DNA of 64,000 bases from Saururus chinensis (taxonomy: Eukaryota > Streptophyta > Magnoliopsida > Piperales > Saururaceae). Position numbers and translations under genes: made by a program. Below the pieces are notes generated by a model, which saw only the letters and a list, made by a program, of their open reading frames with translations, was not told where the DNA came from and ran no database searches. Below are positions 5,543 to 58,417 of the stretch, one piece after another. The DNA is taken from assembly GCA_035235625.1 (NCBI GenBank), contig CP141145.1:42574668-42638667 (forward strand), given 5' to 3'. How positions within the stretch are numbered: the first letter of the stretch is position 1; the number at the start of each line of letters is the position of its first letter.

Positions 5543-5609
5543 ATTATAGGTCACCGGTTAAAAGAACACTTACCGTGTTATAGTTATACGATGAATACCA
5601 TGTTGATCG

Positions 5610-6213
5610 GTGCCCGGATCGATCATCAAATTACTCCTGCACTTCCTCTCCACCACCAATTCGTCCTTTCTAGTCAATCTCTACCCCTACCATCTTTACC
5701 GATCCTCTCTCAACATTCCTGTCGGGTTTGTTCTGTTCCAAGATCACCAGACCTTCAACTATCGGGACGACCTTCTCACCGGAGTCCGGTATCGGAATGT
5801 TTTCGATGTGATGGTTGACGCGGTGATAAGCGCCATGGGTGCCCTGGGTCACGAGAACATTTATGTCGTAGTTACCGAGACGGGCTGGCCTAGTGATGGA
5901 GATATGAATGAGCCTGAGGCGAATGCTCTAAATGCCTGGACCTACAACAGCGGGCTGGTGAGTCATCTGAAGTCCGGTCTTGGGACGCCATTGAGGAGGC
6001 AAGGCGTACCAGAAGCTTACATATATGGGATCTTTGACCAAGACAGGAATCACGGACCTCGATCGACTAGGCAATGGGGAACCGTGTATCACGACGAGAA
6101 AGTACGAGATCGATTTATCGGGTTCAGATGCAGGTGTTGGCGTTGAGGCTGGCCTGATTGAGGTAGTTCTTGTGTTTTGGTTCATGTCAGTGATATTGCA
6201 AAGGAGATTTTAG
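5610..6213 (+). pseudogene. Glucan endo-1,3-beta-glucosidase (GH17) C-terminal fragment
   Basis: GH17 enzymes hydrolyse beta-1,3-glucan (callose) in the cell wall. The plus-strand frame resembles the C-terminal half of the family. A segment like FLSTTNSSFLVNLYPYHLYR matches the central 'FL..T.S.F.VN.YPY..YR' region. Next come YRNVFDVMVDAV and VVVTETGWPS, which contains the catalytic nucleophile Glu (about 5866-5900). Then come YNSGLVSHL and the 'R.WGTVYHDEK' end region. After about 6100 the natural continuation (KYEIDLSGSDAGV plus a hydrophobic tail, reminiscent of a GPI-anchor signal) is one frame over, so a 1-nt frameshift lies near 6097-6105. The signal peptide and the N-terminal half with the proton donor are absent; upstream is a TA repeat and AT-rich DNA. 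It is a truncated, frameshifted relic found only in segment A. Confidence 0.85.
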
Positions 6214-8640: not shown

Positions 8641-8913
8641 AACAAATTTTTTTGCCAAATGAGCAAAAACCCTGTGTAACGAGAAGTACACCCTTGGTGT
8701 TGTTGTCTCTCAATTTCTTCTAGGAGGAAGACGACCACACCTAATTGGGAATATTAAATGTCCAGCTTAGTTTGTTTAATTTTAAGAAATTTATTAAAGC
8801 TATAAACCTAGGTTTTATAGGGATAGACTTTGCACTCAAACTAGTTGTCAAAGTGAATATTTAAATTCAGTCTTACCATTTTGGCTGAATTTCTATTTAA
8901 CTTTGGCCATTTT

Positions 8914-13239: not shown

Positions 13240-15236
13240 CACTACAAAAAAAAAACTATTAGTGGGGGTTTTAAAACCCCGCTACAAGTCTCAAAACCTC
13301 CGTTAATACTTTTAGCGGCGGTTTTGAGGTCATAGTTGAAAAGAGCCCTGTAAAAAGTTTCTATGGGGAACATAGTGGTAGTTTTTTGAGCTGCCGCTAA
13401 AACTTAACCTTTAAGAGTGGGTTTCGGTAGCCTCGGCTAATGAGTTTCAAAAATCAATTTTTTTTAGCGGCAGCTAGACTAGCCCCCGTTAAAAGCTTAA
13501 TATTTTAGTGTTAGTGACTATGTTTAGTGGTGGTTTTTCAAAACCGCTGCTAAAGTATTTTAGTGGGTCTATATGAGTGTCAAAAAAATGCCGCTAAAAG
13601 GTTTTGAGAAACCTTTTATTGACTATTTGAGAAACCAAGGCCAACTTTTTTTCTTCTTATTTTCTGTTTTTATTTCTACAAATCATGTATAATAAACATC
13701 TATTTTTTATTTTCATTTCTACAAACCTTGTATAAAAAATATTTATTTTCCATTTTTATTTCTACAAACCCGGTATAATAATCATCACATATGTAGTACA
13801 ATTGAATTCAACCATCAACCACACTTTATAAATTAAAAAACCCTTAATTAATTAGAACAAAGATAGAATAGTATCAAACATATACATTAGTCTTAAAATA
13901 CAATTATGACTAAATGTTACTGAGTTTAAGATCCCAACACTTGTTCATAAAACTAAACAATAAACATGAATTACATATGACAAGTTCAAAAACAAAAAAA
14001 ATTATGTTTGGAACATGATCTATTCATGTAAGTTGACATCGTAGCATCATCCATCATTAACCTACCTACACAAAAATCCAAATCACCATGCATTAGATTA
14101 TAAAAGAGTTTATCAAAAACAATAATACATATTTATTCCCTCCCTTGAGGATGTAAACCTTGACTAGCCCCTCATGTAACTAATCCCCGACAAGTCATTC
14201 AATGTCAAACAAAATAAAATGAAGCATACCAAAGACAATCCTGGAGCATCTTCCCTTTTGCAAGCGGCTTCAATCTCAGTTTCTCAATTTTACAGGCACT
14301 AATTCCCTTAGGAGGGGCAAATAGTCAAATAATTATAACAATCAATTGTGAAAGAAAGACAGGATAAACTAATAAACAACATCTATGAGATAAGCTGTCG
14401 TGGTCTTGCAAGTGTGGTAGGGCATAGGTTAGGGGAAGTTAGCATTTAACCAGCTAAATAAAGAAACACAGGTGCCACCCCTATCAAATAGTTTCTTCGT
14501 TATCAAAAGTTCCTGAAACAAGACACCAAATCATAGAACTAAATTCCAATGCAAATACCAAAATATTGTTGACGTCAAACATTCAAATGCTCAACAATAA
14601 GAGAGAAAAATAGAACTAAGACAACTGGTACTTACTCTAATACTCATGCTATGATAAGACCAATTTTGAAGCAAAACAATCAACGAGATACATTCATCTA
14701 GTCAATGTCATTGGGATTAGGATGACACTTGTGCATCTCCCAGTGTAGAACTTCTCTCTTCTTTAAGCAGGCAAATGTGAAAGCAACTTTTTTCAATCCC
14801 TTGTCAGCAAACATTCTGTAAGATCTCTGATCTTAAACCGGCTTTTGGTTTTATTTAATTATCGGTTATTGTGAGATTAATGCGTTTTCTAATTTATTCG
14901 GTGATTTCATGAATAAGTAGTGTTTATGATGGTTCTAACTAAAATCAACTTTAAGATTAGTGGTTTTAAGTGATTTTAAAACAAATGTAAATTTTTGGGA
15001 TTTTTTTAAATTTTCACTATTTTTCCGAAAATTAGGGTTTTGGCAGGACCCCTGTAGGCCCACCGACGAAATTTTAATTTTTGTGTCAAATGAACCTAGA
15101 CATCTACTTAAGGTCATCCAAAAATTTTCAGAATTTTCTTAGGCTTAATTAGCACTTAAATTTGCATAATACCTACTTTTAGCCTACTTTTCCTATTTAC
15201 ACCCCATAACTTACCTATGCATATCCCAACCCTTAC

Positions 15237-15244
15237 TATATAAG
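15237..15244 (+). promoter_or_regulatory. TATA box of family I LTR
   Basis: TATATAAG, preceded by a conserved block and followed about 30 bp later by 'ccattcccatttttgggaataggc'. The equivalent in the copy at 33352-36649 is TATAAAAG on minus (36221-36228). This sets the sense orientation of the family. Confidence 0.55.
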
Positions 15245-15917
15245 GGTAAACCTGAGCCATTCCCATTTTTGGGAATAGGCTAAGGAGGGAGGGCTGGCCT
15301 AATCCCCAATTAGGCCTAGATTAGAAGACGATTAAGGTAAGCCTACTCTAATTAAGCACTAAACCCTAGCTTTCTTCTTAATCTCTTCCAAATCTACTAT
15401 TTTCCCCTTGTTTTAATTCATTTTTGGACATCAAAAACTACTGATTTGTGTTTTACTACAAACCCTAATATTCAAAATTCAATTTTTACTATCAACAAGC
15501 CCTAGATCTAAGTTTTAATTAAGGATTTTTTGGGTAAATCAATTTTTAATGGAGGTTAATTCAAACTCAATGTGTTTTTAAGGTTTTCAAGAAGAGTGAC
15601 CCTCCAATCCGAGCTCAATCAAGTGCTGAGGTAATGGACCTTCAAAATCTCTGTTTATCCATGGTAAAACTCTTCATTTTTGGCTTATTTCGAATGGAGT
15701 TGCTTGATTTGGTGTGCTAATGGTAAGATTAGAAAATAAAATTATTTAATCCCGATTTCTTAGGGTTTTGTATTATTATGATATGGTTTAACATTCTGGA
15801 AGTCATGAAGGACTTTTGATGATGATTAGGGTATTAGATGTGGATTTGAAGTGTTATCAATTGTGTCTCGGTTTGGATTTGCGAAAGGAAGAAGATGATC
15901 AATTCTGCCTTGTTGGC

Positions 15918-16075
15918 GTTCGAACGGCCTTCTGGGCGTTCGAATGGCAACACTGTCAAAATGACAGTTTTCCAGTTCAGCCGATCAAACGGCCTGCTAG
16001 GCATTTAAACGGCCAAACTGTAAATTTTAAATTTTTACGTTTAGCCGATGAACGGCCTGAAGGGCATTCGAACGG
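15918..16075. repeat. Near-palindromic CGTTCGAACG / CGATCAAACG module in family I LTR
   Basis: Five imperfect copies of a 'GCGTTCGAACGGCC' or 'GCCGATCAAACGGCC' palindrome occur in about 160 bp, spaced by 'tctgggc / tgctaggc / tgaagggc' linkers. Equivalents lie in the other minus-strand family I copies (31265-31500, 35450-35560, 57215-57320), and a closely similar module occurs in the unrelated LTR at 28974-30392 (29390-29490). Confidence 0.8.
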
Positions 16076-18398
16076 CTATACAGCAGAATTGTGTTATAAT
16101 GCATGATGTTTATTTCGATGATTCTAATTTAGCTTGCCAATTTTATATGAATGTGGAGTATTTTAAGCTATGTTATGCTACTGGAAAGGCATGCTATTGA
16201 GGTTATAGAGTTGAGATATATTCTTAGAGATTTGTGGAATGACTTATGGTTTGTGGCATGATGTTGAAATTATCATCTTGAAATTGTGAATGGTTGATTC
16301 CTCATAGTTAAGCATAATTTCAGTAGAACTACAAACTATTATTGGACCGATTTGTCATGATAGAATGTGGTTAGTTGATGTGTAGATGTTGGTGAATGCC
16401 ATGATTGAAGGATGAAATGAATGATCTTATATATGTTTAGCCTTTGTGGTTGAGTTTTGATTGAGTTATGATTTCAATGATTCTTCTCCTATGATTTTCA
16501 CTAGAATTCATGTTTAGATGGTAATTCTCATGTGTAGTGTGGTAGTGAGTTTAATTTCAAGCATGTTGACATGCATTGTGTAAAATGCTTCTACTAGTTA
16601 CACACACATGTGGGGGTTTAATGATGATGTTGAAGCTTGATATTGTGATTATAAATGATGTATTAGGGGCTGATGAGAGCACTTATCATGAATTAGGATT
16701 TATGTATGCCTTGCCCACGTATGTACCATGCTGCATGCATCATGAGAATGAATTTCAAATTGAGGCTTCATCGAGATTAATCGAATTTGACCGATTGGAT
16801 GCAATGTGGTGAAATTATGTGCCGGATTGATCGGTCTGGATTAATCGAAAGTTGATTGGTCCGAAGGGACATGTTTTGATTTGAGTTCTTGTGTGGAACG
16901 AGTGCACTCCCCGGGTTGTGTCTAATTAAATGGAATTATGTGGGGACGAGTTGTTAGAATGTTATTATGAGTGTCATATAGACCCTGAGAATCTAGTGTG
17001 GTATGCCGTGTGCACCCCGCTACCACGTGTTCTAGGGTTCTCTGTGTGAGAACTCGGGCTCTTCCCTCCGCAGGAGATGTCCCTGGGCGAACACCCCTGC
17101 ACTATGATGCAGTTTTAGGTGATGTGTATGCGTGATCAGAAAACGATGCACCTTGCCAATCTTTGATCTGAATGATTATATTGTTATGCTATCGTGTTTT
17201 TGATGTTGATAGTGATATTAAAAAAACCATTGCTGAGTTTGTTAAACTCACCCCTTTTTCTTGTGTTTTGTTTTGGGGCTGCGTGGTGCGACACGCAGAC
17301 GAACAGGATCTCCTCTTTGAGGAAAGGTCGGAGATGACTTGGATGTGATCATGGAGGTCGTTGTGTGACTTATCTTCTTTGGTTTTATGCTTTATGTTTA
17401 GAACCTTTGTGTAAGGTTCTTTGTTTTGGATTTATGTCACATTTTGCAGTTATGTTTGCTTAAGACTTATTTTGAGCCGATGTGGGCTATAGTTAAGTAA
17501 GCATGTGGGTTTGAGATTAGTTGTTTACTTTGTGATAAGCAACACTTTTTCTGTTCTTCTTATTTACTCTTGCTTAAAGGATTGTATGTACTCCATATTT
17601 CTGTTAATCGCCCGTAATTAGGGTTAAGTCTTTCGCTAAATCATTTTTCAATTTCTCTTTGTTGCCCCCGCGCGCTTGACCGGCCCTTGGACCGGGTTCG
17701 GCTCAGGTCGGGCATCGCCGGGGCGTGACACATTCATATGCTATATTTTAACTTGAGACAATCCACAAGCATGAAACTAATAAATATGAAACTATAGCCT
17801 TAGAAAAGGGAAACAATTAGTGAGTCATGTGATCTTGGAAAAGGAAAAGAGTAAGAAAGCAGAGCGAAACTTAAGCTTAGAAGCTAACTTTTTGTTATGA
17901 AGGTATTGACCACGAGGGAAAGTTGGAAAGGCATATGCATGATGTATGCTAGCAAGGTAGATCATCTATTATAAAAAAATGGAGCAGTACTTAAAATATC
18001 TATGTGACGCCCCGACCCGAAAACTGACCCGGGCTGGGGGTCCGAAAACCGATAAAAACCAAACCCATAACCAAGAACATCACACTTTGAGTGCGAGAGT
18101 CTTCTCGTTCCTCTACGTGCTACGGAACTTTAGCGCTCCGTTACGCGTAGGCAAGAACTGGCCTAATTATATAACTAATTCGGACCGGGCCAACATTGCA
18201 TTGCCGTTGGTTGCCTACGTACATATCGGCTAACATCCATGATGTTACTCCGATACGATCGGATCCAGACGTAGTTCTGCCTACTGGCTACTACATACAA
18301 CTGGCATACCAAAAACACATACGTATAAAATATGTATCTCCAAATATTTAATCGGAGCTATACGAAAACCCGATAAACACCGGCAACACACGTCTCGC

Positions 18399-27355: not shown

Positions 27356-28164
27356 GTTTGTGTGATAGCTTTGAAGACATTTGTGTCTTCACTTTTTCGC
27401 AGTTTGCAGTGATTGGGGATAATTCTAGTCATGTTATTTGCATGCATGATATTCCTTACATATTTCTTACTCGATAATATTGTTTAGGAATAGTTTTTCT
27501 CATTGTGGTTGTCACGCCTCGGTGATGTTCGACCTGAGCCGAACCCTATCAAAGGGCCGATCAAGTGTGCGGGGGCGACGAAGGAAAATTGAGAAACGAT
27601 TCAGTGAAAGACTTAACCCTAACCACGGACAACTTAACAAAATTACGGAGTACGCACAATCCTATGAGCAAGAGTAAATAAGAAGAAAAAAAAGAGACTT
27701 GCTTAACATAAACTAAATAACTAGTCTCAAACTCACATGCTTAGTCAATTATAGCCCACACTGGCTCAAAATAAGTCTTAAGCAACACAACTGTAAAATG
27801 TGACATAAATCCAACAGAGAACCCTACACAAAGGTTCTAAACATAAAACATAAAACTAAAGGAAAATAAGTCACACAACGATCTCCACGATCACATCCAA
27901 ATAATCTCCAACCTTTCCTCAAAGAGGAGATCCTATCCGTCTGCATGTCGTACTACGCAACCCCAAATCAAAAACACAAGAAAGAGAGGTGAGTTTAACA
28001 AACTCAGCAATAGTTTTTAATACAACTATCATCATCGAAAATATGATAGCATAACAATAAACTTATTCAGATCTAAGATTGGCAAGGTGTATCATTTTCT
28101 GATCACACATACACATCACCTAAACCTGCATCATAGTGCATAATCCACATAATGTCATTCTCAC

Positions 28165-28620
28165 CCTAACATCCTACATGAAATATATCTCTAACATACA
28201 TATTCCATTATGCATCGCATCATAACAATTTGCATGAATGTATCTCTAATATACATATTTCATCATGTATCACATCGTAACAACCTACATGAATGTATCT
28301 CTTACATACATATTTCATCATGCATCACATCGTAACAACCTACATGAATGTATCTCTAACATATATATTTCATCATGCATCATATCATAATAACCTGCAT
28401 GAATGTATATTTAACATACATATTCTGTCATGCATTATATCATAACAACCTGCATGAATGTATCTCTAACATACATATTACATCATGCATCATATCATAA
28501 CAACCTGCATGAATATATCTCTAGCATACATATTCTATCATGCATCACATCATAACAACATGCACGAATATATTTCTAGCATACATATTCCATTATTCAT
28601 CACATCAAATCATCCTCCAT
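28165..28620. repeat. Tandem array, about eight 55-bp units, family I LTR
   Basis: Units read 'catgaatgtatctctaacat' followed by 'acatatttcatcatgcatca' and 'catcataacaacctg'. This is the expanded form of the array seen at 10080-10345. Confidence 0.9.
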
Positions 28621-28973
28621 CAAGGAGTAATCACAATTTAGTGTCACACAGACGGGAACATGGACAAGGCCATGAAGGCGTGTCATGGTCCAAAATTCTA
28701 CTCAAGAATTCAAGAAAGTTCAGGGTTGTCAATCCCTAAAGCTGCTCACCCTGGACGATCCTGACCGAGGATGTCCCATTCTCACATAGAGAATCTAGAG
28801 CAGGGGTGCTCGCCTAGGGACATCTCCTACGGTGGGGAGAGTATGAGTTCCCACACAGAAAACCCTAGAACACATGGTAGCGGGTGCACACGGCATACCA
28901 CATTGAATTCTCAGGGTCTAGATGATACTTATAATAACAATCTCATAATCCGCAAGACAAGTACACAACTCGT

Positions 28974-30392
28974 TGATAAGTATGAAATCTATATCTATTT
29001 TATATGCCTTTTTACCTTATTTGCTAGTATAGATTAGGTTAATTTAGAGTTAGTTATAGTTTATTTAGATTAAGATAGATATTAGTATTTTAGTTTAATT
29101 ATTAATAATTTTGTAGTTATTAGTTGTTTAGACATGTATTTAAATCAAGTTGGAATTTTAATTATATTCTACATGTCTAAAGTATGGTATTTTATATTTT
29201 TGTAGGTAAAGTGCGCTTATCGAAGTACTTGGACGATGTTTGAAATGATTAAAAATAGTCTTCACATGCTTTAAAGTGATTTGGATAACTTTTCGGAGTT
29301 ATAAACAAGTTAGAAATTAATATGGACACGAAGGAAAGCTTAATGAACAGAATATGAACAGTTCGATAAAACAGAAACACTGTAGCCGATTGATCGGAGT
29401 CACTTACCGATCGATCGGGATAACGTGAATTCAGATAAAAATACAGTGTAGCCGATCGATCGGGCATGCAGGGCGATCGATCGGCATAACGTGCAGTTTC
29501 CTTGTTTGACCCAAATTCCAATCTTTTTCATATTGGACTTCTTCCTACGGAACTTATGCCTATAAAAAGACATATTTGGCTTAGAATTGGGGGATTCCAG
29601 TAGATTTTAGGAAGAGAAAAAGGAAGAAGAAGATGAAAGAGAATTCAAAGCTTCTAATGGAGATTCAAGTGCTTTCTTCTACCATGGAAAGCTAGACTTT
29701 TCTTTTACTTAGGAGTTGATGAAGCTATAAATAAGTTTCAGTTTCTTTTTTTTAAGTTAGATCTCAGTTGTGAATGATGACAATTGTATGATATGAATTT
29801 TCTTTTTAATGGAAGAGCTTTTAATGTTTATTCAAATCTATGTTGATTTATTGTCTTGTAGATGATAGATTGATATGGTTTTGATATTTTCATCGATTCT
29901 AATTTCTGTGATTTAGATGAGATGTTCATATAATAGTTTTAATGTTCAGATAATTAATGACTTAGATGAGTTATACTAAGATTAGACGGGTCATGCCTAT
30001 AGCTAGTTTAGTGTAGATGATCCGTGCTATTGTCGAAGATAGTTCATGCCATGGAAGTTAATTAAGGATTCTTTTTGAAGTAATTCTAGCTTGTAGCTAA
30101 GAGTACTTGTTCATATTCACACTAGATTTAGATTAAAAGTTAAGGAATTGTTATGGTTCTATAGTGGATTCAATTTCCTAAGTAATTTTCATCAAATTAA
30201 TCTCTTATTTTTAAACTAGTTGATTTCTTTCTTTTGCTTAATTTAAGTTTAAGTTATTTTTAGTTTTTAATCAACAAATTCCTCTTTAGATTTAGTAATA
30301 ACTCATCTGTCCCTGAGGTTTGACAACCCTTAAATACTTATCCTAGTACAATTACCTTGTATACTTGCAAAATATTTAATTATAAACGATCA
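28974..30392 (+). mobile_element. Solo LTR, family IV, nested in family I copy 3
   Basis: It runs from TGATAAGTATG to AAACGATCA, flanked by the exact 5-bp duplication CTCGT (28969-28973 and 30393-30397). The uninterrupted sibling at 34570-34590 reads ACAACTCGTCCCCAC. A TATA box (TATAAAAAG, 29561-29569) gives plus orientation. At 29390-29490 it carries CGATCGATCGG palindromes like those of family I. The TGATAAGT start is known from some plant Ty3/gypsy LTRs, but there is no coding region to confirm the class. It is younger than its host LTR. Confidence 0.88.
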
Positions 30393-32602
30393 CTCGTCCC
30401 CACATACTTTCATTTCTCTAGACTCAACCTGGAGAGTGCACTCGTTCCACACAGGAACTCAAATCAAAACATGTCCTTTTAGACCAATCAACTTTTGATT
30501 AATCCACAACCGATTAATCCAGCACACAATTTCACCACATTGCATCAAATCAGTCAAATCCGATTAACCTTGATAAAGCCTCGATTGGAAATCCATTTTC
30601 AAGATGTATGCAGCATGATACATATATGGGCAAGGCATATATGAATCCTAATCCATGATAAGTGCTCTCATTAGCCCCTAATGCGTCATTCATAATTATA
30701 ATATCAAGCTTCAACATTATCATTTAAACCCCACATGTGTATGTGTACCTAGTAGAAGTACTTCACACAATGCATTTCAACATGCTTGAAATTAACTCAC
30801 TACCACATTACACATATGAATTAACATCTAATCATGAATTCCAACGGAAATCATAGGAGAAGAATCATTGAAATCATAACTCAAATCAAAACTCAACCAC
30901 AAAGGCTAAACACATATAAGATCATTCATTTCATCCTTAAGCCATGATATTCACTAACATCCACACATCAACTAACCACATTTTATCATGACAAATCAGT
31001 CCATTAATAGGTTGTAGTCCTACTGAAAATATGCTTAACCATAGAGAATCAACCGTTCATAATTTCAAGATGACAATTCCAACATCATGCCACAAGCCAT
31101 AAGTCATTCCACAAATATCTAATTATATATCCCAACTTCATAACCTCGTTAGCATGTCTTTCCAGTAGCATAATATAGCTCAAAATACTTCATATTCATA
31201 TAAAATTGGCAAGTTAAAGTGGAATCATCAAAATAAACATCATGTGAATAACATAAAATTTTGCTGTGTAGCCGTTCAAACGCCCAAAAGGCTGTTCGAT
31301 CGGCTAAACGGGAAAATTTCAAATTCACAGTTTGGCTGTTCGAATGCCCAGCAGGCCGTTTAATCGGCTGAACTGGAAATCTGTCGATCCGATAGTGTTG
31401 CCGTTTGAATGCCCAGCAGGCCGTTTAATCGGCTGAACTGGAAATCTGTCGGTCCGATAGTGTTGCCGTTTGAATGCCCAGAAGGGCCGTTTGAACGCCA
31501 ACAGGGCAAACTGACTATCTTCTTCCTTTTACATTTTCAAACCGAAACTCCATTGATAACACTTTAAATCACCATCTACGAACCTAAATCCCATCAAAAA
31601 TCTACCATGACTTCCAGAATGCTAAACCACATCATAACAAGATAAAACGCTAAGAAATCGGGATTAAAAATTACCATTTTTTAATCATGCAATTAGCACA
31701 CTAAATCAAGTAACTTCATTCAAAATAAACCACAAAATCAAGAATTTTATCATAGACAAATTGAAATTTCGAAAGCCCATTACCTATCCCTTGATTAGAC
31801 TTGGATTTGATGGTCACCCTTTTTGAAAACCTTACAAAGACATAGAGTTTGAATTAAACTCCATTGAAACCGATTTAACAAAGAAAACCCTAATTAAAAA
31901 CTTAGATCTAGGGCTTGTTGAACATAAAAATTGGATTTTGAGAGCTAGGGTTTATAGTAAAAATACAAATAAGTAGTTTTGGTGTTTAAAAACGAATTGA
32001 AACAAAGAAAAAATGGTAGATTTAGAAGTGATTAAGAAGAAAGTTTGGATTTAGTGCTTAATTAGAATGAGCTTACCTTAAACACCTTCTAATCTGGGCC
32101 TAATTTGTGGATTAAGCTTGACCTCTCTTCCTTAGCCTATTCCCAAAATAGGAATGACTCAGGTTTAGCCTTTTATAGTCGGCCTTGGGGTGTGTATGGG
32201 TAAGTTATGAGGTGTAAATAGAAAAAGTAGGCTAAAAATGAGTATTTTAGAAATTTGAGCACTAATTAAGTCTAAAAAAATTCTAAAATTTTTTGTATGG
32301 GCTTAAGTAGATATCTGTGTTCATTTGACACAAAAACTAAAATTTTGATGGTGGGGCCCACAGGGGTCCCGCCAAACCCTAATTTTTGGAAAAATAATAA
32401 AAATTTAAAAAATACCAAAAATTCACATTTGATCCAAAATTACTTAAAACCACTAATATTAAAGTTAATTTTGATTAAAACCATCATAAACACTATTTAT
32501 CTTTGAAACCACCGAATAAATCAGAAAAAACGTGTTAACCTCACGATAACCGATACTTAAAGAAAAAAAAACCAGTTTAGAGATGAGAGTCCTTACAGTG
32601 GT

Positions 32603-33215
32603 GATTGCTTCTTAATATTTTTTAATTGTTAAATTTGCAGTTCTTTGCCCTCTATTCTACTACCACCAGATGCATTTGCTCGACATATTTGCTCTGGGTA
32701 TCAGCTTTGCCATTGGATTGACATGTGCATTTACTAGCGGTAAAATTTTCTTTGTAAATATTTTGACCAATTACCACATTGTGTTCTTTGTATTTTAGAA
32801 AGCTCATTTTTAGTTATTTTTATAACTTTCATTTTTCAACATTTTGTGGTGACAAAAATAGTGGTGTAGGAGGTAGAGAAGATTTCTGGAAGTGAATTGT
32901 CCCTGTATCATCTCAATCTCCTATTATAGAGCATTCTTGTATTCTTTTTCTTTTGGTCAAATGGCATGACTATTTTTATTTCTTCACATTTATGCAAGAA
33001 TAAAGGCTAGTATTATTGCTTTTATGGGGACCTTAGATTTTCGTACCATTTAACATTAACATTTAATGTTTAAGAGACAATATATCAAGAAATTTGTGTC
33101 TCATATATGTTTTTTGTACATGTAAACGGATTACTCCTACATGGTCTTCTATTTGTTTTTATGATATTAATGAATTTTATGTACTCATGCCATTCTTTAC
33201 TTTTTATGTGTGTAA
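32603..33215. other. Non-coding DNA between two solo LTRs
   Basis: AT-rich. It includes a possible AG acceptor followed by an unidentified sequence at 32640-32740. I could not assign this to NUP62 or to the Myb/SANT-like gene. Confidence 0.4.
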
Positions 33216-33219
33216 TAGG

Positions 33220-36200
33220 ATACTTGAAATGTCTTATGGTCAGGGAATGACATTTGATATTGGATCTACCTCTCGAGTAGAAAAAAAAGTATTCTAAAAA
33301 GGTGGTTTGGGATAAGCCATTGCATTATACCTTTATCAGGCATATGACCCATGTCACGCCCCGGCCATGCCCGACCCGAGCCGAACCCGGTCCAAGGGCC
33401 GGTCATAGCGCGCGGGGGCGACGAAGTGAAATTGAGAAACGATTCTAGCGGAAGACTTAATCCCTAACCACGAGCGATTAACAGCAACACGGAGTGCGCA
33501 CAATCCTTTGAGCAAGAGTAAATAAAAGGGAAAGAAAAGGTGTTGCTTAACACAAAGTAAACAACAATCTCAAACCCACAAGCTTAGTTTAAGTAAAGCC
33601 CACACCGGCTCAAAATAAGTCATAAGCAAACATAACTGTAACATGTGATATAAATCCACAACAAAGAACCCTACACATAGGTTCTAACATAAAACATGAA
33701 ACAAAATGAAGGAAAGTCACGCAACGATCTCCATCATCACACCCAAGCTACCTTTGACCTTTCCTCAAAAAGGCAATCCTGTCCGTCTGCGTGTCGCACC
33801 ACGCAGCCCCAAATCAAAACACAAAAGAGGGGTGAGTTTTAACACTCAGCAATGGTTTTAATATCACTAACAACGTTGAAAATACGGTAGCATGGTGATA
33901 TAGTCTTTCAAAAACAACGATGTACAAGGTGTATCACTTTCTGATCACATATTTACATCACTTATACACTGCATAACATCATAACTCAAACATGCAGGGA
34001 TGTATCTCTAGCATACCAATTTCCACATGCATTCACATCATAACCAATCCCGCATGGACGTATCTCTAACTCCCACATGCATAATGTCATCACAACCAAT
34101 CCCGCGTGGATGTATCTCTAGCATACATATTCCCACATACATTTTATCATCAAAATCAACATGCATGGATGTATCTCTAATATACATATTCCCACATGCA
34201 TAATGTTATCACAATCAACCTCCATCAAGGAGTAATCACACATTAACGTCACACAGACGGGAGCATAGACAAGGCCACGAAGGCGTGTCATGGTACAAAA
34301 TTCTACACAAGAATTCAAGAAAGATCGGGGTTGTTAATCCCTAATACTACTCGCCTTGGACGATCCTAGCCAAGGATGTCCCATTCTCACACAGAGAATC
34401 TAGAGCAGAGGTGTTCGCCTAGGGACATCTCCTGCGGAGGGAAGAGCCCGAGTTCTCACACAGAGAACCCTAGAACACGTGGTAGCGGGGTGCACACGAC
34501 ATACCACACTGGATTCTCAGGGTCCAGATGACACACATAATAATATTCTCACATATCCGCAAGACAAGTACACAACTCGTCCCCACATCATTCCATTAAA
34601 CAAGACTCAACCCGGGGAGTGCACTCGTTCGACACAGGAACTTCAAATCAAAATATGTCCTTTCGGACCAATCAACTTGCGATTAATCCACGACCGATAA
34701 ACCCGGCACACAATTTCATCACATTGTATCCAATCGGTCAAATTCGATTAATCACGATGAAGCCTCACTTGGAAATCCATTTTCATGATGCGTGCAGCAT
34801 GGTACATGCGTGGGCAAAGCATACATGAATCCTAATCATGATAAGTGCTCCCACTAGCCCCTAATGCATCATTCATAATCACGATATTAAGCTTCAACAT
34901 CATCATTTAACCCCCACATGTGTGTGTAACTAGTAGAAGCCTTTCACATAATGCATATTAACATGCTTGAAAAATCAACTCACTACCACACTACACATGT
35001 GAATTTCTACCTAAACATGAATTCCAGCGGAAATCATAGTAGAAGAATCGTTGAAATCATAGTTAAATGCAAAACTCAACCACAAAGGCTAAACATCTAT
35101 AACATCACTCATTTCATCATTGAGTCATGGCAATCACCAACATTCACATACCATTAATCACAATTTATCATGACAAATCAGTCCAACAATGATTGTAGTC
35201 CTACTGAAAATATATGCTTATCCAAAGGGAACCAACCGTTCATAATTTCAAGATAATGGTTCCAAGATCATGCCACGAAACATAAGTCATCCCACCATCT
35301 CTAAGCATATGTCTCAACTCTATAAACTCAATAGCATGCATTTTCAGTAGCCTAACATAGCTTAAAACACTCCACATTCATATAAAATTGGCAAGCTAAA
35401 GTGGAATCATCAAAATAGGCATCATACACACAACATACAATTTTCTGTGTAGCCGATCGATCGCCCTTCATGTCGTTCGATCGGTTACAAGTAAAATTTT
35501 GAAATTTTCAGTTCAGCCGATCGATCGCTCTGCAAGGCTGATCGATCGCCAACGCGACAAAACAGTCATCTTCTTCCTTTCGCAAATCCAAACCGAAACA
35601 CCATAGATAGCACTTCAAATCCACATCTAACACCCTAAACATCATCAAAAGTCCTCCTTGACTTCCAGAATATCAAACCAAACCATAATAATGCAAAACC
35701 CTAAGAAATCGGGATTACATAATTCCATTTTCTAATCTTACCATTAACACACTAAATCAAGCAAACCATTTCGAAATAAGCCAAAAATGAAGAGTTTTAC
35801 CATGGATAAACAGAGATTTTGAAGACCCATTACCTCAGCACTTGATTAAGCTCGGATTGAAGAGTCACCCTTCTTGAAATCCTTGAAAACACAATGAGTT
35901 TGAATCAAACACCAATAGAAATCGATTTACTTAAGAAATCCCTAATTAAATCTTAGATCTAGGGCTTGTTGGTAGTAAAAATCGAATTTTGAAAGTTAGG
36001 GTTTGTAGTAAAACACAAATAAGTAGCTTTTAATGGTAAAAAACGAATTGAATCAAGGGGAAAATGGTAGATTTGGAAGAAATTAAGAGAAAAGCCATGG
36101 ATTAGTGCTTAATTAGAGCAAGCTTACCTTAATCGGCTTCTAATTCGGGCCTAAGTGGGGATTAGGCCAACCCTCCTTCCTTAGCCTATTCCCAAAAATG

Positions 36201-37495
36201 GAAATGGCTCTGGTTTGCCCTTTTATAGTAAGGGTTGGGGTAGGCATAGGTAAGTTTTGGAGTGTAAATATGAAAAGTAGGCTAAAAGCGGTTATTTTGC
36301 AAATTTAAGCACGAATTAAGCCTAATAAAATTCTGAAAATTTTTGTGTGACCTTAAGTATATGTCTAGGGTCATTTGACACAAAAATAAAATTTTTGACC
36401 GTGGGGCCCACAGGGGTCCCGCCAAAACCCTAATTTTTGGGAAAATAGTGAAAAATTCGAAAAATTCTAAAAATTTACATTTGGTTTAAAATCACTTAAA
36501 ACCACTAATATTGAAGTTAATTTTGGTTAAAACCATCACAAACTCTATTTATTTACAAAATCACCGAATAAGATCAGAAAACACGTAAATCTCACGATAA
36601 TCAATAATTAAAGAAAACCAAAACCGGTTTAAAGATGAGGGTCCTTACAACCCATGCAATTAACAAAGGCCATAGGAGAGGGAGCTCTCTAGACTTTGAC
36701 GGTTAGGCATTAGTGATTGACCTTTTTAAGAAGGATAATGATGTTGAAGTTGATAAGATTGAGTTAAAAAATCACTATGACAACTCAAGGAGATTTTATT
36801 GTGGATGGAATGAGTTGAGAAATATAACTGGAGTTGGTTGGAACCTGATAGCGCACACATTCATTCTCTCTAATAATGCATGGAACAACTTTTTGAAGGT
36901 AATAATTGGTATATTTCTTTTTCTAGAAGTATGTACTTAAAAGTTAAAGGATTAACATTTATATTTATTTTTTGGTGCAAAGACATAAGTATGACTACTG
37001 ACTAAAACTATGGGGGTATGATGAGGAGTCGAAAGCTAACCTACAAATTGTATTCAGCAACAAACATGCCATAGGGAAGAATAAGCTTTATTATGATTCT
37101 GGTAATTCCCCTCCAACTGAAATGCTTGAGGAGGATAATGTTGAGGATGGTAGGGACACATCTACATGTTTTACTAGTCTAGATGATCCTTATTTTGGGG
37201 ATGAGGTTGAGGAAGGAACAAGGACTGTGAATGAAATATTTGGGACTACTAGGTAGGTTCCATTGGCATCTCTACCTACCCCTGCCCCTAATCTAGCATA
37301 AAGTACATCACAAGGTCCTATTGGAAACACAAGACCACTCATCCCCCCTAGTTCCAACACAAAGCACAAAGGAAAAAGAAAGTATCTTGAGGAAGCTTCA
37401 TCTATGGGATAGTCTATTGCTAAGGCCTTGTTAGTGAGGAATGAGATTGCACATGAGAGCTCCAACTCAGCCAAAGAGATGTTCGAAATAGAATA
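33220..37495 (+). pseudogene. Myb/SANT-like DNA-binding domain gene relic, split by a solo LTR
   Basis: The Myb/SANT-like domain (Pfam Myb_DNA-bind_3 type) binds DNA and occurs in plant nuclear proteins and in PIF/Harbinger companions. The exon starts after an AG at about 33220. VVWDKPLHYTFIRHMTH ends where the solo LTR begins (33352). After the LTR (36650) it continues AINKGHRRGSSLDFDG, a TAG stop where the family has Trp, then IDLFKKDNDVEVDKIELKNH, FYCGWNELRNITGVGWN and NNAWNNFLK with a GT donor near 36900. A second exon (about 36985-37490) gives YDYxLKLWGYDEESKANLQI and an acidic tail. There is an A-homopolymer frameshift at about 33280 and further stops. It is a broken copy. It could be a host gene or part of a Harbinger element; no Harbinger transposase was seen nearby. 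Confidence 0.78.
33352..36649 (-). mobile_element. Solo LTR, family I, copy 4, inserted in a Myb/SANT exon
   Basis: On plus it runs from TGTCACGCCCC to GTCCTTACA, flanked by the exact duplication ACCCA (33347-33351 and 36650-36654). The TATA box TATAAAAG is on minus at 36221-36228. The palindromic module at 35450-35560 has the CGATCGATCG form. The tandem array at 33985-34215 has about four units. It is a whole LTR of about 3.3 kb with no interior. Confidence 0.93.
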
Positions 37496-38520: not shown

Positions 38521-40329
38521 TTACAGGTTTGTTGTGGTTCGGGAGATGAGATAAACCCTGGCCTTGATGACGGATCCGTCTCCAAGCTTAAACCCAGGCG
38601 TCAGGGGAAACCCCACCACCTGATTCCTACTCCTCTGAGCTGTTGGTCCGGCCTCGATGATCAGTGACCTGTCGACGACGCTTTCCATGTAGGCCGGATG
38701 GAACTCGGCGCCCCTCTTGGCCTGAAAGTGAGCCGCAGCTGGATCTAGGGCGAAGGCCAGCAGATGGAGCTGCCACACCTCCTTCGCCAGCCCCAGAAAT
38801 AACTCGTAGAACTCGGTCTTGGGATGAGTCCACGCCATGACCAGCCTTCTCTGCTCCAAGCCTCCGAACAGCGACTCCTCCATCTTCGGATGCACCACGG
38901 CCAGAAACTTCCTGCAGCAGAACTTCCCGAATCGGCACCCGGGCAATATCTCCACCAGCTCTGCCGGGTCCATGGTCTTCTTGTCGCGATACTGCGTGAT
39001 GCAAGCATCCCGGAATTTGTCCCGGCGAGAGAAGCCCGCAGTACCATTGTTATTGTCGTCGCTGATGCTACAGAAGGTTTCGTTCTCGAAGCCCTGGAAG
39101 ATTTTACGGCTGACGAAGGACTCGAGGGCACGCTTGGCGAATTCCTGATCATGGGGAAGAGACAGTCCCACGGCCGTGTAGGCGTCAGCAGCAGGGCCCT
39201 CGATGGACCGGACAGCGGAGGTGACGTCCCAGCGGGCAGAGCTCATGAGGGAGAGTAGCACAGCGGTGAAGGATTTGAGAGCTCCTTTCACGTGGTCCAT
39301 GGTGGATTCGAAGAGCTCTGGTGTTGGAGTTGAAGCAAATAACGAAGCAGCTGAAAGATAATACATGAAACTAAACTCATGACACAAGAAACGTTATATC
39401 TTATACTGAGATGTTATCTGTGATCTTGTTTCTTTTTACCTTGACTGGTGCAACTCACTTTCTTGTGAAGCGATTGGAGCCTCCATTTCTTTCCAGTCTG
39501 CTGCTCAGAGCGTTTGAGTCTCACCTTCAGGTTTTCCACCTCCCTCTCCTTCGCCTTCAACTGTTTCCTCAGCTCCTCCACGGCTGCCATGTGAGCACAG
39601 CCGTGGTTCATCGTCATACTGGTGATCCTTCTATCGCTCGCAGTTCCCTTGACCTCTTCAGTTAACTTTTCCAGACGACTCAGCTCCACCGCCATGGCCA
39701 AGTTAGCCGACGTGATCTTCTCAGGGTCCCGGAGACACTGTGCTTCCTGGAGGCTGACATACGCAGCCCTCACTGCCAACACTCCCTCCCAGACTTCTAT
39801 CACTACTCCTTCACCCTTCCCCTCCTGATCATATTCGTCTGGTCTTCTGTCCTCCAAACTCTCTTCTCCCGCAGGCAGTCGAAGCAGGCAGGAGCCGGCA
39901 ACTCGCCGGATCAGTACTTGGGAGATGTGGGACACTTTACCCTCAATTTCCAGCTGTTTATTCTTAGGATAAATTACGAGGTTCTTTCTGCACAAGTATA
40001 TTAAAGACGGAGAAAATGAATTAGCATTTGCCATTACAACACTTAAAACACTAAAGAAGGATTTTTTTTTTCGCTGAAGAAGAAGGGGTTGCATGTTATA
40101 AAAAACATAGGAGTAATAATTCATTTACCTGCCATTCTGCATTGACAACTTTGACAACCTTTTCTGCTCGCAAGGCTGTGTCGTTCCAGCTCCCTCGTCC
40201 CACTGGTTGGTGATTTTCTGCCTATAAAAAAGCAAGAATAGCCATGGGGACGGAAAATTAAAACAGAGAGAAAGGTTGAGAAGTTGAACTTAACGAAAAG
40301 GAACTTGCTAAGCTAGTTACATCCTCCAT
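38521..40329 (-). CDS. DUF641 protein, GIL1 / IRK-interacting-protein-like
   Basis: GIL1 (GRAVITROPIC IN THE LIGHT 1) and IRK-interacting proteins are plant DUF641 proteins with an N-terminal coiled-coil region and a conserved C-terminal domain; GIL1 acts in light control of gravitropism. Model: ATG 40329-40321, exon 40221-40129, exon from about 39983 (or 39987) to 39440, exon 39350-38521, giving about 491 codons, usual for the family. HISQVLIRRVAGSCLLRLP and AAYVSLQEAQCLRDPEKI mark the N-terminal DUF641 part. A Lys/Glu-rich coiled coil (EELRKQLKAKEREVENLK) follows. The C-terminal domain has FGKFCCRKFLAVVHPKMEES, HPKTEFYELFLGLAKEVW and AYMESVV. The 39440/39350 intron is clean GT-AG, phase 1. 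The first two exons and the 39983 acceptor are my inference. No stops or frameshifts are seen. This is the only intact-looking host gene here. It is more GC-rich than its surroundings. Confidence 0.9.
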
Positions 40330-43725: not shown

Positions 43726-46700
43726 GAGTTTTTTCCATATTGCCTAGTCAAAGAAGGAAAAATTTTATATTTCCTGGATTTTAAACGGAAATGCCATATG
43801 ACCTATTTTTGGACCAAAATACCCTTAGGTTTTCACTATATTAGGTTTTAATGTAGAGAGTAATATATGAACACCGGTATAGTGGCGCGCCGTTCCGGTG
43901 TACTAGTAGTCATTAACGGCGAATGGAACTCGCCGGTGGGAGTTGACCGACGATAACTCACAGGCGAGAGTTGATGAACAAGAAAAAAATATTTTTTGAC
44001 ACCGCAAACGCTGTGTGAGTGCTCCAAAGGCTACATTTCGCAGAAATGATTATTCTTTCATACCAATCATGATAGGATCGGTATTTGCATCCATTATAAT
44101 GGAGAGGTAGGTAATGACGATGTGTATATTGTGTGTATATTGGTGGAATGACACGGTTGATGAACATTCATCCATTGGTGAGCTTTGGCGAGCTACTGGG
44201 ACAAGTCAAAGCACAACTTTCTGTCAATGGTAATGTCACTTTGAAGTATTTAATTCCATCATCCCAATCATCCATGATATATGAATTATAAGACGATGAG
44301 GACCTCCAATTAGTGTTCATTCATAAGAAGGCGAATAAGGAGGTGCTATCATTATATGCCGAGATGAAACAGCCTGATAAGAGTGATAAATCACCATCAC
44401 CCTCCATAGAAAGGAACCAGACAGTCAATAGAGCTGAATCACCCATTGTAATGGCTCTTCCTAGCTCTAATGTTGGATTTCATTTTGGATTTAGGGTTAA
44501 GGGTAAATCATATCGTGTGAAGTAATAAACACGATGCGTAATATATCACATTAGTAATTACACGGTATACACATGTGTTATAGCAATTATGAGTTGTAAT
44601 GTAGATATAATAACATGACATGCATTCATGTCATAGTTTCGATAACACATTTTGAAATGTAAGCGTGTTAACAGAATACACGATGTTGACTGATGCCGCA
44701 TTTTTTTAACACGATAATGTGCAATGCAGATTGGGAGAATTGGGAAACTTGCCCTCAACAAATCCATGTCAATCATCTTTCACCAATCCAACGAGTACAA
44801 AACCTGAAATAGAAGTCAATCAGAATAGATTAGAGGAATGGTCGCTAATGATGAGTGGGACAAGGACTTCATTTGATAACTATGAACCTCCATACAACCC
44901 TTGTAATTACGATGGTAAACAAGGCGAAGAAGTTGAAAATATGTGGTGAGGATCTGTGGTACGATAATGATATAGTTGACATGGAAAGTATGTTTGACCA
45001 CGAAGAATTTGGAAACAATGAGGTTCCTAGTAACGTCGATGTTGAGGCGGAGGCAGATTGGGATACAGTTGATGATTTAAACATATTAGAACCAAATATT
45101 GGTAAAGGCCAGCTAATAACGGGCCATTTGCAAGCTAAGGATTACCAGAAGCTCCTTGAATTGGGTGCACATTTTCTAAGCCTGTCGCATTTCAAGAGGG
45201 TCTTAATCGACTTGGCAATAAAGGTGAATTTCACATATCGTGTTGTGGATGAAAACTGGAATACGTATGCCGCAAAGTGTTCCAATGATTCTAGTAACTG
45301 GTACATAAGGGCTTCAAATATAGGAGATTATGTGACTATCACGAGGTTAGTGTCGACTAATTCATGTGGAACCTAAAGAAAGTCAACTGACCGTCCCCTA
45401 GCATCGCACCTTTGGATAGATAAAAAATGTTATGGCCTCTTTAAAGACTCAGTGGACATTACACCTAAGAGCATAGCAAGTTATATATCGAAGCACTGGG
45501 GCATAACTGCCAACTACAAGAAATGCTGGCATGTATGTAATGCATGAGAAGAATCGAAGTGTTGATTTAGTGTCACGATATGTTAGTCTAGCATGTTATC
45601 GTTTACACGCTTAAACTATAGTCGGAATATGCACTCACACGACATATGTCAATATCGTATTACCATAAACACGACTAGTCATCATGTATGGATTCCGATC
45701 ACACAAAAACATAAAATGCCGTGCGATCGGGAACATGATGTAAGCCGGTGTCGTATAACATTTACTAAATTGTATTCGGTCATTCAAGTAAAGCTCCGAC
45801 TGATTTAATAGATAGTGACCTACACGAATCCTATCGCTTACTTCATGCTTACGGGAGGCAGATAGAATATATTAATCCAGGAAGTGTAGTTGTGCCAGTG
45901 AGATCATGTGATATTCCCGAACCTATGGGTGGGTATGATTTCAAAAGAGTATTCTGGATGTGTGGCTCCATTGCGAGAGCTTTTAGAACAACCCTAAGGC
46001 CGTTGCTAACGGTTGATGCAACTTTCTTAAAAAGAAAGTATCCTATACAGCTATTGATAGCAATTGCATTAGACGGGAACAATAATATGTTGTGCGTTGC
46101 ATTTGTAGTAGTTGAGAACGAGTGCGAGAAAACTTGGTGGTAGTTTCTTGAGTTACTTCGAAATCATTTATTTTTTGATCCTCCAGCCGAGTTGGATACA
46201 ATTGTTTTTGATAGATAGAAGGGATTGGCAAATGCTGTGAATAAGTTTTTCTCATCTACACACCACATATATTGCATACGTCACATGGCAACAAATATAC
46301 TAGACAGATTCAAGGACAACTACCTAAAGAATTAGCTCCATGTTGCAGCCGAAACGTTTAGACAAAATGTGTATGATGAAACAATGAATAACATTAAAGA
46401 ACATAATCCGGAAGTATATGCTTGGCTAAATAAGATAGGTTCGGAGCATTGGGCCAATGTATCATTTCTTGGGAAAAGATATGGGACCCTCAGCTCAAAT
46501 AGGTCCGAAAGTACAAAGGCAATGTTCAAAAAAGCCAGATTGATGCCTATAACTCGTTTAATTGAGCACATGAGGGAGCACATGACAACATTATTTGAAA
46601 AACGTTGGACAGGCGGTCAGAATATGATAGAAGAGTTAACCCCATTTGCCCAAAAACACGTTGAAAGTAGGCGAGAAGAAGCCAGGAATGTGATTGTATT

Positions 46701-54993: not shown

Positions 54994-57900
54994 TGTCACA
55001 CCCTGGCGATGCCTGACCCGAGCCGAACCCGGTCTAAGGACCGGTCAAGCACGTGGGGGTGACGAGGGGAAATTGAGAAACGGTTTAGCGGAAGACTTAA
55101 CCCTAAATACGGGCGATCTAACAGAATTACGGAGTAAACACATTCTTTTGAGCAAGAGTAAATAAGTAGAAAAGAAAGAGAGTCGCTTAATTTAAAATAA
55201 ACGACTAGTCTCAAACCCACATGCTTAGTCAACCATAGCTTACACTGACTCTAAAATAAGTCTTAAGCCACACAACTGTATAAAGTAACATAAATCCAAC
55301 AGATAACCATACACAAAGGTTCTAAACATAAAGCATAAACTAAGGAAAATAAATCACATAAGAGTCTCCATGATCACATCCAAGTCGTTTCCGATCTTTC
55401 CTCAAAGAGGAGATCCTGTCCGTCTGCGTGTCGCACCACGCAGCCCTAAAGCAAAAACACAAGAAAGAGGGGTGAGTTTAACAAACTCAACAATGGTTTT
55501 TAATATAACTATCATAGTCGGAAATACGATAGCATAACAATAAAATCATTCAGATCAAAGATTGACAAAATGTATCATTTTCTGATCACACATACACATC
55601 ACCTAAACCTGCATCATAGTGTATATTCCACATAGTGTCATTCACATCGTATCAACCTGCATGAAATGTATCTCTAACACTCATATCAAATCATGCCTCA
55701 ACATCACATCATCCTGCACAAAATGTATCTCTAATATACATATCATATCATGCGTCACATCATATCAACTTGCATGAAATGTATCTCTAACATACATATT
55801 TAACCATGCATCAACATTCTCATTCATCATGCATGTATAAGTGTCACACACACACTAGCCCAACATGCAAGTCCATACACATAGAGAATAAACCTGATCT
55901 TCAAGGCCAACTCCCTCGAGCAACTCCTGCTTATCAAGACACGAAGTCTCAAGCAACTCCTGCTTATCAAGACCGAAGTCCCAAGCAGCTCCTGCTTATC
56001 AAGACCGAAGTCCCAAGCAACTCCTGCTTATCAAGACACGAAGTCTCAAGCAACTCCTGCTTATCAAGACCAAAGTCCCAAGCAACTCTTGCTTATCAAG
56101 ACCAAAATCCCAAGCAACTCCTACTTATCAAGACACGAAGTCTCAAGCAACTCTTGATTATCAAGACCAAAGTCCCAAGCAACAATACTTGGTAAGCCGG
56201 TGCACTCGAATAAACCAACTGGATTCTCAGGGTCCAGATAATCATAATAATCTCAATCCGCAAGACAAGTACACAACTCGTCCCTACATAACTCCATTTA
56301 ACTAGACTCAACCCGACTCGGAGTGTGCACGTAAAAATACCTCTATGTCGACTCTAGTCATCACGTCCCATACCAAGAATATTCGTGATGCCATAGAAGC
56401 AAATTTAACTAAGCACTAGCGCAACGAACCTTGGAGCTATCCATTGACATAATGCGTCTCATACCACAAGTGTCTAATGGTCTCTCCTCGGCTATTCCAC
56501 ATAACTGATCAATTCCGATTAACCGACGGTAAAACCTCAATTGAAAATACATTTTCATGATGCATGCAACATGGTACATACGTGGGCAAAACATACATGA
56601 ATCCTAATTCATGATAAGTGCTCTCATCAGCTCCTAATGCATAATTCATAATCATAATATCATGCTTCAACATCATCATTAAACCCCACATGTGTGTGTA
56701 CCTAGTAGAAGCACTTCACTCAATGCATATCAACATGTTTGAAATTAACTCACTACCACACTACACATGTGAATTAACATCTCATCATGAATTCTAGCGG
56801 AAATCATAGAAGAAGAATCATTGAAATCATAACTCAAATCAAAGCTCAACCACAAGCTAAACACATATAAGATCATTCACTTCATCCTTGAGCCATGACA
56901 TTCACACATCAATTAACCACATCTTATCATGACATATCAGTCTGTTAATATGTTGTAGCTCTATTGAAAATATACTCAACCATAGAGAATCAACCACTCA
57001 TAACTTCAAGACGGCAATTCCAACATCAAATATCCAACCACAAGCCATTCTACATAACTCTAAATATATATATACCACAACTTCAAAATATCAATGGTAT
57101 ACCCTTCCAGTAGCTTACTATAGCTCAAAACACTCCACATAAACATAAAAATAATATTTTGGAGTAGATATGTCAAAATAAACAACATACATAAAATGGT
57201 CAAATTCTGCAGAGTAGCCGTTCGAACGCCCTACAGGGCCGTTTGATTGGCTAAACAGGAAAAATGCCAAAACTGCAGTGTTGCCATTCGAACGCCCTGC
57301 ATGTCCGTTCGAACACCAACAAGGCAGATTCGACCTTCTTCTTCCTTTTGCATTTTCAAACCGAAACTCCATTGATAAAACTCAAAATCACCATCTAACA
57401 ACCTAAATGCCATTAAAAGTCCACCATAACTTTCAGAATGCTAATCCACATCATAACAAGATAAAACCCTATGAAATTTGGATTAAAGATTACCATTTAC
57501 TAATCATGCCATTAGAACTCTAAATCAAGTAACTCTATTCAAAATAAACCACAAAATCAAGAGTTTTACCATAGGAAGACTGAAATTTCGAAAGTCCATT
57601 ACCTTATCCCTTGATTAAGCTTGGATTTGATGGCCACCCTTCTTGAAAACCTTACAAGGACATAGAGTTTCAATTAAACTCCATTAAAACCGATTTAACA
57701 AAGAAAACCCTAATTAAAAATTTAGATCTAGGGCTTGTTGAACATAAAAATCGGATTTTGAGAGTTAGGATTTGTAGTAAAGACGCAAATCAGTATTTTT
57801 GATGTTTAAAAAATGAATCAAAACAAAGGGGAAATGGTAGATCTAGAAGGGATTAAGAGAAAAGCTTGGATTTGGTGCTTAATTAGAAGAGACTTACCTT

Positions 57901-58417
57901 AAACACCTTCTAATCTGGGCCTAATTGGGGATTAAGCCTGACCTCTCCTTCTCAGCCTATTTCCAAAATGGAAATGACTCAGGTTTGCCCTTTTATAGTA
58001 GGGTTTAGGGTGTGCATGGGTAAATTGTGGGGTGTAAGTAGAAAAATAGGCTAAAAATGGGTATTTTACAAATTTGAGCACTAATTAAATCTGAAAAAAT
58101 TCTGAAATTTTTTGTATGAACTTAAGTTGATGTCTGGGTTTATTTGGTGCAAAAACCCAAATTTCAACGGTAGGGCCCATAGGGGGTCCTGCCAAACCCT
58201 GATTTTTGGAAAAATAGTAAAAATTTAGAAAAATCCCCAAAAATCACATTTGACTCAAATCACTTAGAAACCACTAATTATAAAGTTAATTTTGATTAAA
58301 ACCATCATAAACACCATCTATATTTGAAACCACCGAATAAATCAGAAAATGTGTTAACCTCACGATAATCGATAATTAAAGTGAAACGAAAACCGTTTTA
58401 AGATCAGAGATCTTACA
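54994..58417 (-). mobile_element. Solo LTR, family I, copy 5, nested in LTR family III
   Basis: On plus it runs from TGTCACACCC to GATCTTACA, flanked by GAAAT (54989-54993 and 58418-58422). The A paralog at 11496-11500 is empty (TTAGAAATGGTCC). It has the short array at 55625-55810, a copy-specific minisatellite (55914-56183) and the palindromic module (57215-57320). About 3.4 kb, no coding interior. Its insertion postdates the A/B duplication. Confidence 0.93.
55914..56183. repeat. 32-33 bp minisatellite, about eight units, only in copy 5
   Basis: The unit reads CAAGCAACTCCTGCTTATCA followed by AGACCGAAGTCC (or AGACACGAAGTCT). The other four family I LTRs have different sequence at this position. 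The frame at 55806-56195 simply translates the repeat. Confidence 0.92.

Follow-up and report, generated by a model that had tools for sequence, protein, structure and literature searches.

Why do two LTR retrotransposon families that seem unrelated carry the same palindromic module? The question arises in a 64,000-nucleotide stretch of Saururus chinensis contig CP141145.1 (here, the window), for which the original prediction suggested either that a regulatory cassette had been exchanged or that binding sites for a host factor had arisen by convergence, and also raised methylation-sensitive switches. The sequences that it quoted are present where it placed them. To these we add two palindrome types in both families, opposite reading strands, and a third carrier of the array.

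LTR families I and IV in the window

Four family I LTRs in the window are each bounded by matching 5-bp target duplications, and nested inside one of them is a family IV LTR that reads plus. Three of the four family I copies read minus and the one at 14817-17730 reads plus; LTR length is ∼2.9 to 3.4 kb in the three uninterrupted window copies.

28974..30392, plus strand: family IV solo LTR, ends TGATAAG...CGATCA, 5-bp target duplication CTCGT on both sides
33352..36649, minus strand: copy 4 of family I, a solo LTR flanked by the target duplication ACCCA
27510..32597, minus strand: family I solo LTR split by the family IV LTR, target duplication GTGGT, found by self-comparison
14817..17730, plus strand: family I solo LTR, target duplication CATTC
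54994..58417, minus strand: family I solo LTR of a diverged subfamily, target duplication GAAAT

The minus orientation of copy 4 follows from the primer site adjoining another copy, L051, in which GGCGTGACA is followed by GAGTTTTTGGTATCGGAGC; we take this site, seen in one copy, to be of the initiator-methionine tRNA type. In copy L052, profile matches adjoining the LTR exceed the cutoff for RT_RNaseH and Integrase_H2C2 (one copy), rve falls just under it (32.0 versus 32.6), a Tf2-1-like SH3 domain scores 94.4 bits, and Chromo scores 22.5 bits, below Pfam's 25.1 and thus a weak chromodomain match. L052 therefore has the chromovirus order, an integrase and a (weak) chromodomain downstream of reverse transcriptase/RNase H, which together with the methionine-type primer site makes family I probably a chromovirus-type Ty3/gypsy element. 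In family IV, TGGCGCCGTTGCCGGGGA or a near match follows the LTR in L021, L029, and L033 (3 of the 30 loci listed), presumably a tRNA-Asp-type primer site such as characterizes Athila/Tat-type Ty3/gypsy elements. A search for family IV coding domains found no frame longer than 69 amino acids in ∼1.5 kb of sequence, either downstream of the L021 primer site or upstream of the L015 3′ LTR.

Several other features share the window. A fifth family I piece lies at 8907-11007; its array seems deleted, because matches jump across the array-bearing stretch of other copies. Family I LTRs also contain a second tandem array, of 55- to 57-bp units unrelated to the palindromes (28167-28607, 10074-10307, and 55642-55817), which varies in copy number and, read along the element, is situated downstream of the palindromes. 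The diverged LTR at 54994-58417 further contains ∼8 tandem copies of a 32-bp unit (55919-56183), which the repeat scan does not list for the other window copies of family I. Outside the LTRs are a GIL1/IRKI-type plant gene (38524-40124, minus; DUF641 and GIL1_IRKI_C domains in two adjacent frames), a partial glycosyl hydrolase family 17 gene, presumably of the beta-1,3-glucanase type (5607-6143, plus), and a MuDR-type transposase domain (DBD_Tnp_Mut; 44855-45373, plus).

Are the two families related outside the module? LTR alignment gave no convincing match there: the best has an E value of 0.005 (95 bp, 63%), the next one of 0.014, and their order is unlike that of the module. Homology throughout both LTRs was thus rejected, bearing out the claim that the rest of the two LTRs is dissimilar. 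The leading gtgtagcc, also said to be shared, is common to both on the plus strand of the window; since copy 4 of family I reads minus and family IV reads plus, it lies at opposite array ends in the elements' own orientation. The array itself is nearly dyad symmetric and aligns between the families about equally well in both orientations (104 bp, 69%, E = 2.6e-10; 108 bp, 70%, E = 1.9e-9).

A paired 10-bp palindrome recurs across the genome

The repeated unit is a 10-bp palindrome, CGWTCGAWCG, paired ∼21 bp apart in LTR families I and IV. We call arrays of CGATCGATCG palindromes the AT type and those of CGTTCGAACG palindromes the TT type.

29387..29483, plus strand: family IV array; sites at 29387 (CGATTGATCG), 29408, 29453, and 29474, with steps of 21, 45, and 21
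35454..35548, minus strand: family I copy 4 array, CGATCGATCG type; sites at 35454, 35474 (CGTTCGATCG), 35518, and 35539 (TGATCGATCG)
31266..31497, minus strand: older family I array with extra 65-bp tandem units, decayed, CGTTCGAACG-like; decay-tolerant sites to 31497
15917..16074, plus strand: older family I array, CGTTCGAACG type, partly decayed; from the decay-tolerant scan, end counted from the sequence
57219..57315, minus strand: older family I array, CGTTCGAACG type; from the decay-tolerant scan

The last three are the variants that had been predicted in other family I copies. Spacing is narrow. The 21-bp step recurs in 54/54 pairs counted in the 30 AT-set family IV copies (the window's own copy, L009, among them); family I has steps of 20 to 21 bp, mostly 44 to 45 bp between pairs, and one to several units of ∼65 bp, with TRF reporting a period of 65 at 31266-31492. 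Within the window, CGATCGATCG with at most one mismatch occurs 8 times versus 0.26 expected from shuffles, all 8 inside the two modules. The decay-tolerant scan for pairs 19 to 22 bp apart found 12, with steps of 20 or 21, all in family I/IV modules, whereas 30 first-order random sequences averaged 0.0.

We then searched the genome (516 Mb, 11 contigs). Pairs of the form CGATCGATCG-N4..24-CGATCGATCG occur at 1,481 places (reversed control, 1) and CGTTCGAACG pairs with the same gap form at 497 (control, 0); single CGWTCGAWCG sites number 19,523 versus 1,260 for the reversed control. The gap was 11 bases in 89 of 100 distinct pairs listed, 10 in 9, and another length in 2, over a searched range of 4 to 24, and among the first 100 sites listed, 57/61 neighbor distances below 200 bp were 20 to 21, 44 to 45, or 64 to 66 bp. 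The switchable positions hold only A or T in 2,061/2,088 pairs of fixed form. They are self-complementary in 161/172 palindromes, counted in the 86 of 2,088 pairs listed with their letters (one place on both strands). Sampled family I copies carry an asymmetric A..A arm; in 39/39 its partner is self-complementary, where a hairpin would call for T..T. These copies are related by descent and not independent.

The 17-mer GTGTAGCCGATCGATCG occurs 744 + 700 times and its reversal 0 times. Twenty places sampled from the first 100 listed of 1,444 fell in family I LTRs (18/20, including L049, only 67% alike) or family IV (2/20); in another copy search, sequences were taken for 20/41 matches. At the level of sequence, a third context beside families I and IV is shown by L098 (C1:9739079-9739469), where four palindromes, two of them carrying a single mismatch, form two pairs with a step of 20 bp. 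Its sequence gave 40 scored matches (of 215 candidates), several of them on one strand at distances of ∼4.9 to 5.4 kb, which is what pairs of LTRs would give. Another locus, L106 (C1:11770080, 1-391), has a CGATCGATCG pair with a 10-base gap and further GATCGATC words nearby and belongs recognizably to neither family; we set it aside as possibly due to chance, because the reversed control pattern also gave 1 match.

Two palindrome types and a probable switch in both families

Each family has two types, CGTTCGAACG, which is older and diverse, and the younger CGATCGATCG; its CGTTCGAACG-type arrays carry the family's own spacers. When majority letters of the AT and TT sets are compared, family IV differs at 8/8 switchable positions, 0/32 other palindrome positions, 4/81 positions in spacers, linker, and edges, and 8/250 flank positions; the corresponding values for family I are 6/8, 0/32, 12/79, and 6/206. 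The TT sets are copies with exact CGTTCGAACG pairs (plus a second copy in L012, added by hand for family IV) and the AT sets are copies resembling the window copies, so that part of this contrast, and of the 0/32, is built in. Fisher tests of switchable positions versus flanks, which treat sites as independent, gave 2.9e-11 (IV) and 2.0e-7 (I); without the pair used to pick the TT copies, the differences are 4/4 (2.9e-6) and 2/2 (1.3e-3), respectively. The two switchable positions unchanged in family I form its asymmetric A..A palindrome, which does not differ between the types. In family I, more change than in flanks is also seen in spacers and edges (12/79 versus 6/206).

In midpoint-rooted trees inferred from flanks only, each AT set forms one clade within the TT diversity, with one change each (AT clade support of 0.335 in IV and 0.698 in I). 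Mean flank identity is 0.965 for AT-AT and 0.855 for TT-TT in family IV (45 rows), and 0.979 and 0.762 in family I (29/35 rows; 6 were dropped for a flank of <60 bases, and L098 and L106 were excluded from the set by hand); the tightness of the AT sets comes partly from their being chosen by similarity to window copies. Because most spacer letters stayed, the type change appears to be a parallel switch and not a transfer, and the later change looks parallel whether the array arose once or twice. That palindromes switched in parallel while spacers mostly did not speaks for a DNA-binding constraint common to families I and IV and disfavors recent wholesale transfer. The interpretation given in the original prediction is supported in part.

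The wider history of family I is not a single one-way step, since L049, a diverged family I relative that serves as an outgroup, has A..T second arms, which are of the younger type (2913-3009, CGATCGAACG and CGATCGATCG mixed in a 21/45/21 layout). Found through the 17-mer, which itself contains one palindrome, L049 matches window copy 4 at 31/32 palindrome core positions versus 786/1,274 in flanks, and two older copies at 28/32 and 29/32 versus 807/1,278 and 792/1,274. The possibility that the module is no better conserved than its neighbors holds for recent copies and fails between subfamilies and against L049. Among recent copies, CpG intactness in the two families revealed no excess conservation of palindromes: 0.919 in palindromes versus 0.898 in the rest for family IV (permutation P = 0.28), and 0.942 versus 0.980 for family I, lower if anything (P = 0.99, only 5 CpGs outside). 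Such unprotected palindromes are as expected if inserted LTRs drift neutrally.

A candidate array of binding sites for a dimeric factor

Where does the array lie with respect to the promoter? A likely TATA box was found in family IV:

29561..29569, plus strand: TATAAAAAG, likely TATA box of family IV by inference, at LTR position 588, 78 bp past the last palindrome

Other TATA-like words of the family IV LTR lie at positions 327, 753, and 1408. For family I, 20/21 copies have a TATA word at LTR position 411-424 (L040 gave no LTR start). The array is thus 78 to 174 bp upstream of the likely TATA box in family IV and ∼680 bp downstream of it in most family I copies examined, and because this placement differs between families, an enhancer-like element would suit the array better than a core promoter.

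A dimeric DNA-binding factor is consistent with the self-complementary arms, the narrow spacing, the near-exclusive A/T, and the symmetry of the switch, and it may be the host's because unrelated elements share the site. We give roughly even chances to the module being a tandem binding-site array for a sequence-specific dimeric factor, probably host encoded, with the change from CGTTCGAACG to CGATCGATCG tracking that factor. Counting against it are the lack of excess conservation among recent copies, the changes in family I spacers and edges, the location of the array on opposite sides of the likely TATA box in the two families, the low clade support for the AT sets, the way in which copies were picked, and the A..T second arms of L049. 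Each CGWTCGAWCG palindrome would be occupied by a dimer of the putative factor, adjacent dimers being about two helical turns apart on one helix face, and the factor might help LTR transcription or escape from silencing. The type change, which probably ran from CGTTCGAACG to CGATCGATCG, could reflect a changed factor specificity or a move to a paralogue. Only tentatively do we extend this to unrelated LTR retrotransposon lineages tracking one moving host DNA-binding specificity, the younger lineages having independently rewritten CGTTCGAACG to CGATCGATCG; such a history is possible, with the balance somewhat against it.

Could the array instead have passed a single time from one LTR lineage to another, through recombination or template switching, and evolved neutrally otherwise? 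Its architecture is in register across 104 bp in the two families, TGCAGGG occurs in spacers of both, and the older family I spacer GACATGCAGGG (57219..57315) differs by eye from the family IV spacer GGCATGCAGGG at 1/11 bases. Among family IV linkers, two older ones are closer to the linker after the L098 array (shuffle chance, 0.0007 and 0.0013) than the younger one is (0.014), in a comparison that used the L084 linker, from which that of L092 differs by a letter. Against this, the stretch after the family IV array is unlike L098 (0.40), and once palindromes are masked, family I linkers show no more than weak similarity to those of family IV (shuffle chances of 0.0017 to 0.84 in 20 pairs, uncorrected for multiple tests). 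The later switch also altered palindromes more than spacers, which a copied tract would not do, and neutrality does not predict 8/8 versus 8/250. We consider a single transfer followed by neutral evolution unlikely. A common origin of the array is nonetheless favored by the similar spacers, by the alignment in register, and by the linker of L098; convergence is also possible, because the masked similarity is weak and the alignment is equal in both orientations.

A role in the transcript, as a hairpin, a genome-dimerization palindrome, or a small-RNA source, would accord with the family I array lying downstream of the likely TATA box and so in the leader, and with RNA folding, in which 5/6 arrays beat all 200 shuffles and the sixth was matched by 1/200 (z scores of −3.0 to −7.3). 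These fold scores largely follow from the inverted repeats themselves, however, and the family IV array, upstream of its likely TATA box, would be transcribed only from the 3′ LTR. Moreover, hairpins need no self-complementary arms, yet 161/172 palindromes have them, and the A..A arms keep nonmatching partners in 39/39. These asymmetric arms disfavor a hairpin or cruciform despite the high fold scores, and we regard a structured RNA as quite unlikely.

Mutational bias is very unlikely by our estimate. Short templated repair would keep palindromes symmetric and spread one type without selection; palindromes do seem to change type as whole units, and 3/19 family IV pairs listed are mixed (T..A with A..T). 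But the asymmetric A..A arm of family I is identical in both subfamilies, the two family IV spacers are unlike, meaning that units have not been homogenized, and the same switch in two families is left unexplained. Finally, a CpG-methylation switch, in which the array matters as a dense CG patch, is highly improbable: 12/28 majority-position CpGs of the family IV LTR do fall in the four palindromes, but CpG positions are the same in both types (no change at the 32 other palindrome positions), and CpG density alone therefore cannot be what changed.

Implications and comparison with known systems

If lineages do track one moving specificity, the LTRs would form a genomic fossil record of a change in transcription factor specificity or of escape from a repressor, and hundreds to thousands of copies would date the change in a DNA-binding specificity that several mobile-element lineages use. 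The two palindrome types would in turn be ready-made probes for finding the factor. Among known sites, TTYGAA, which we take to be the CPP/TSO1 site, would fit CGTTCGAACG and not CGATCGATCG; the string was not found for CPP/TSO1 among the literature matches listed. The Pol III B box fits the motif only in part. Searches of open-license literature by title and abstract start found no earlier report of the motif in LTRs, and a text search for it gave no title on LTRs or plant promoter motifs among the matches listed; one match, in an isoprene synthase paper, was a cloning primer and was discarded.

Tandem regulatory repeats in an LTR have a precedent in the BII boxes in U3 of Tnt1.

Clustered sites for a host factor are described in several LTR families: heat-responsive elements are reported in ONSEN, COPIA37, TERESTRA, and ROMANIAT5 LTRs, with Brassicaceae families gaining heat-factor sites independently (PMC5059998). 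The array proposed here would likewise cluster sites for one host factor in several LTR families. Those sites, as described there, are nGAAn for heat shock factors, whereas ours are pairs of a 10-bp palindrome ∼21 bp apart, and here, unlike in that account, two families underwent a later letter switch.

A second parallel is the VANDAL transposons of Arabidopsis, in which a short VANC-bound motif lies in noncoding tandem repeats, subfamilies carry different motif types, and repeat units evolve together (PMC5735166). The array resembles this system in being a noncoding tandem motif array with subfamily-specific motif types, and differs from what is described there in that the type difference is concentrated in the palindromes. 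VANDAL is a DNA transposon bound by its own protein, whereas here one palindromic motif occurs in unrelated LTR retrotransposons. If our tentative reading of a shared, moving host specificity is true, motif-array coevolution, known between a DNA transposon and the protein that it encodes, would be extended to a site common to unrelated retrotransposons.
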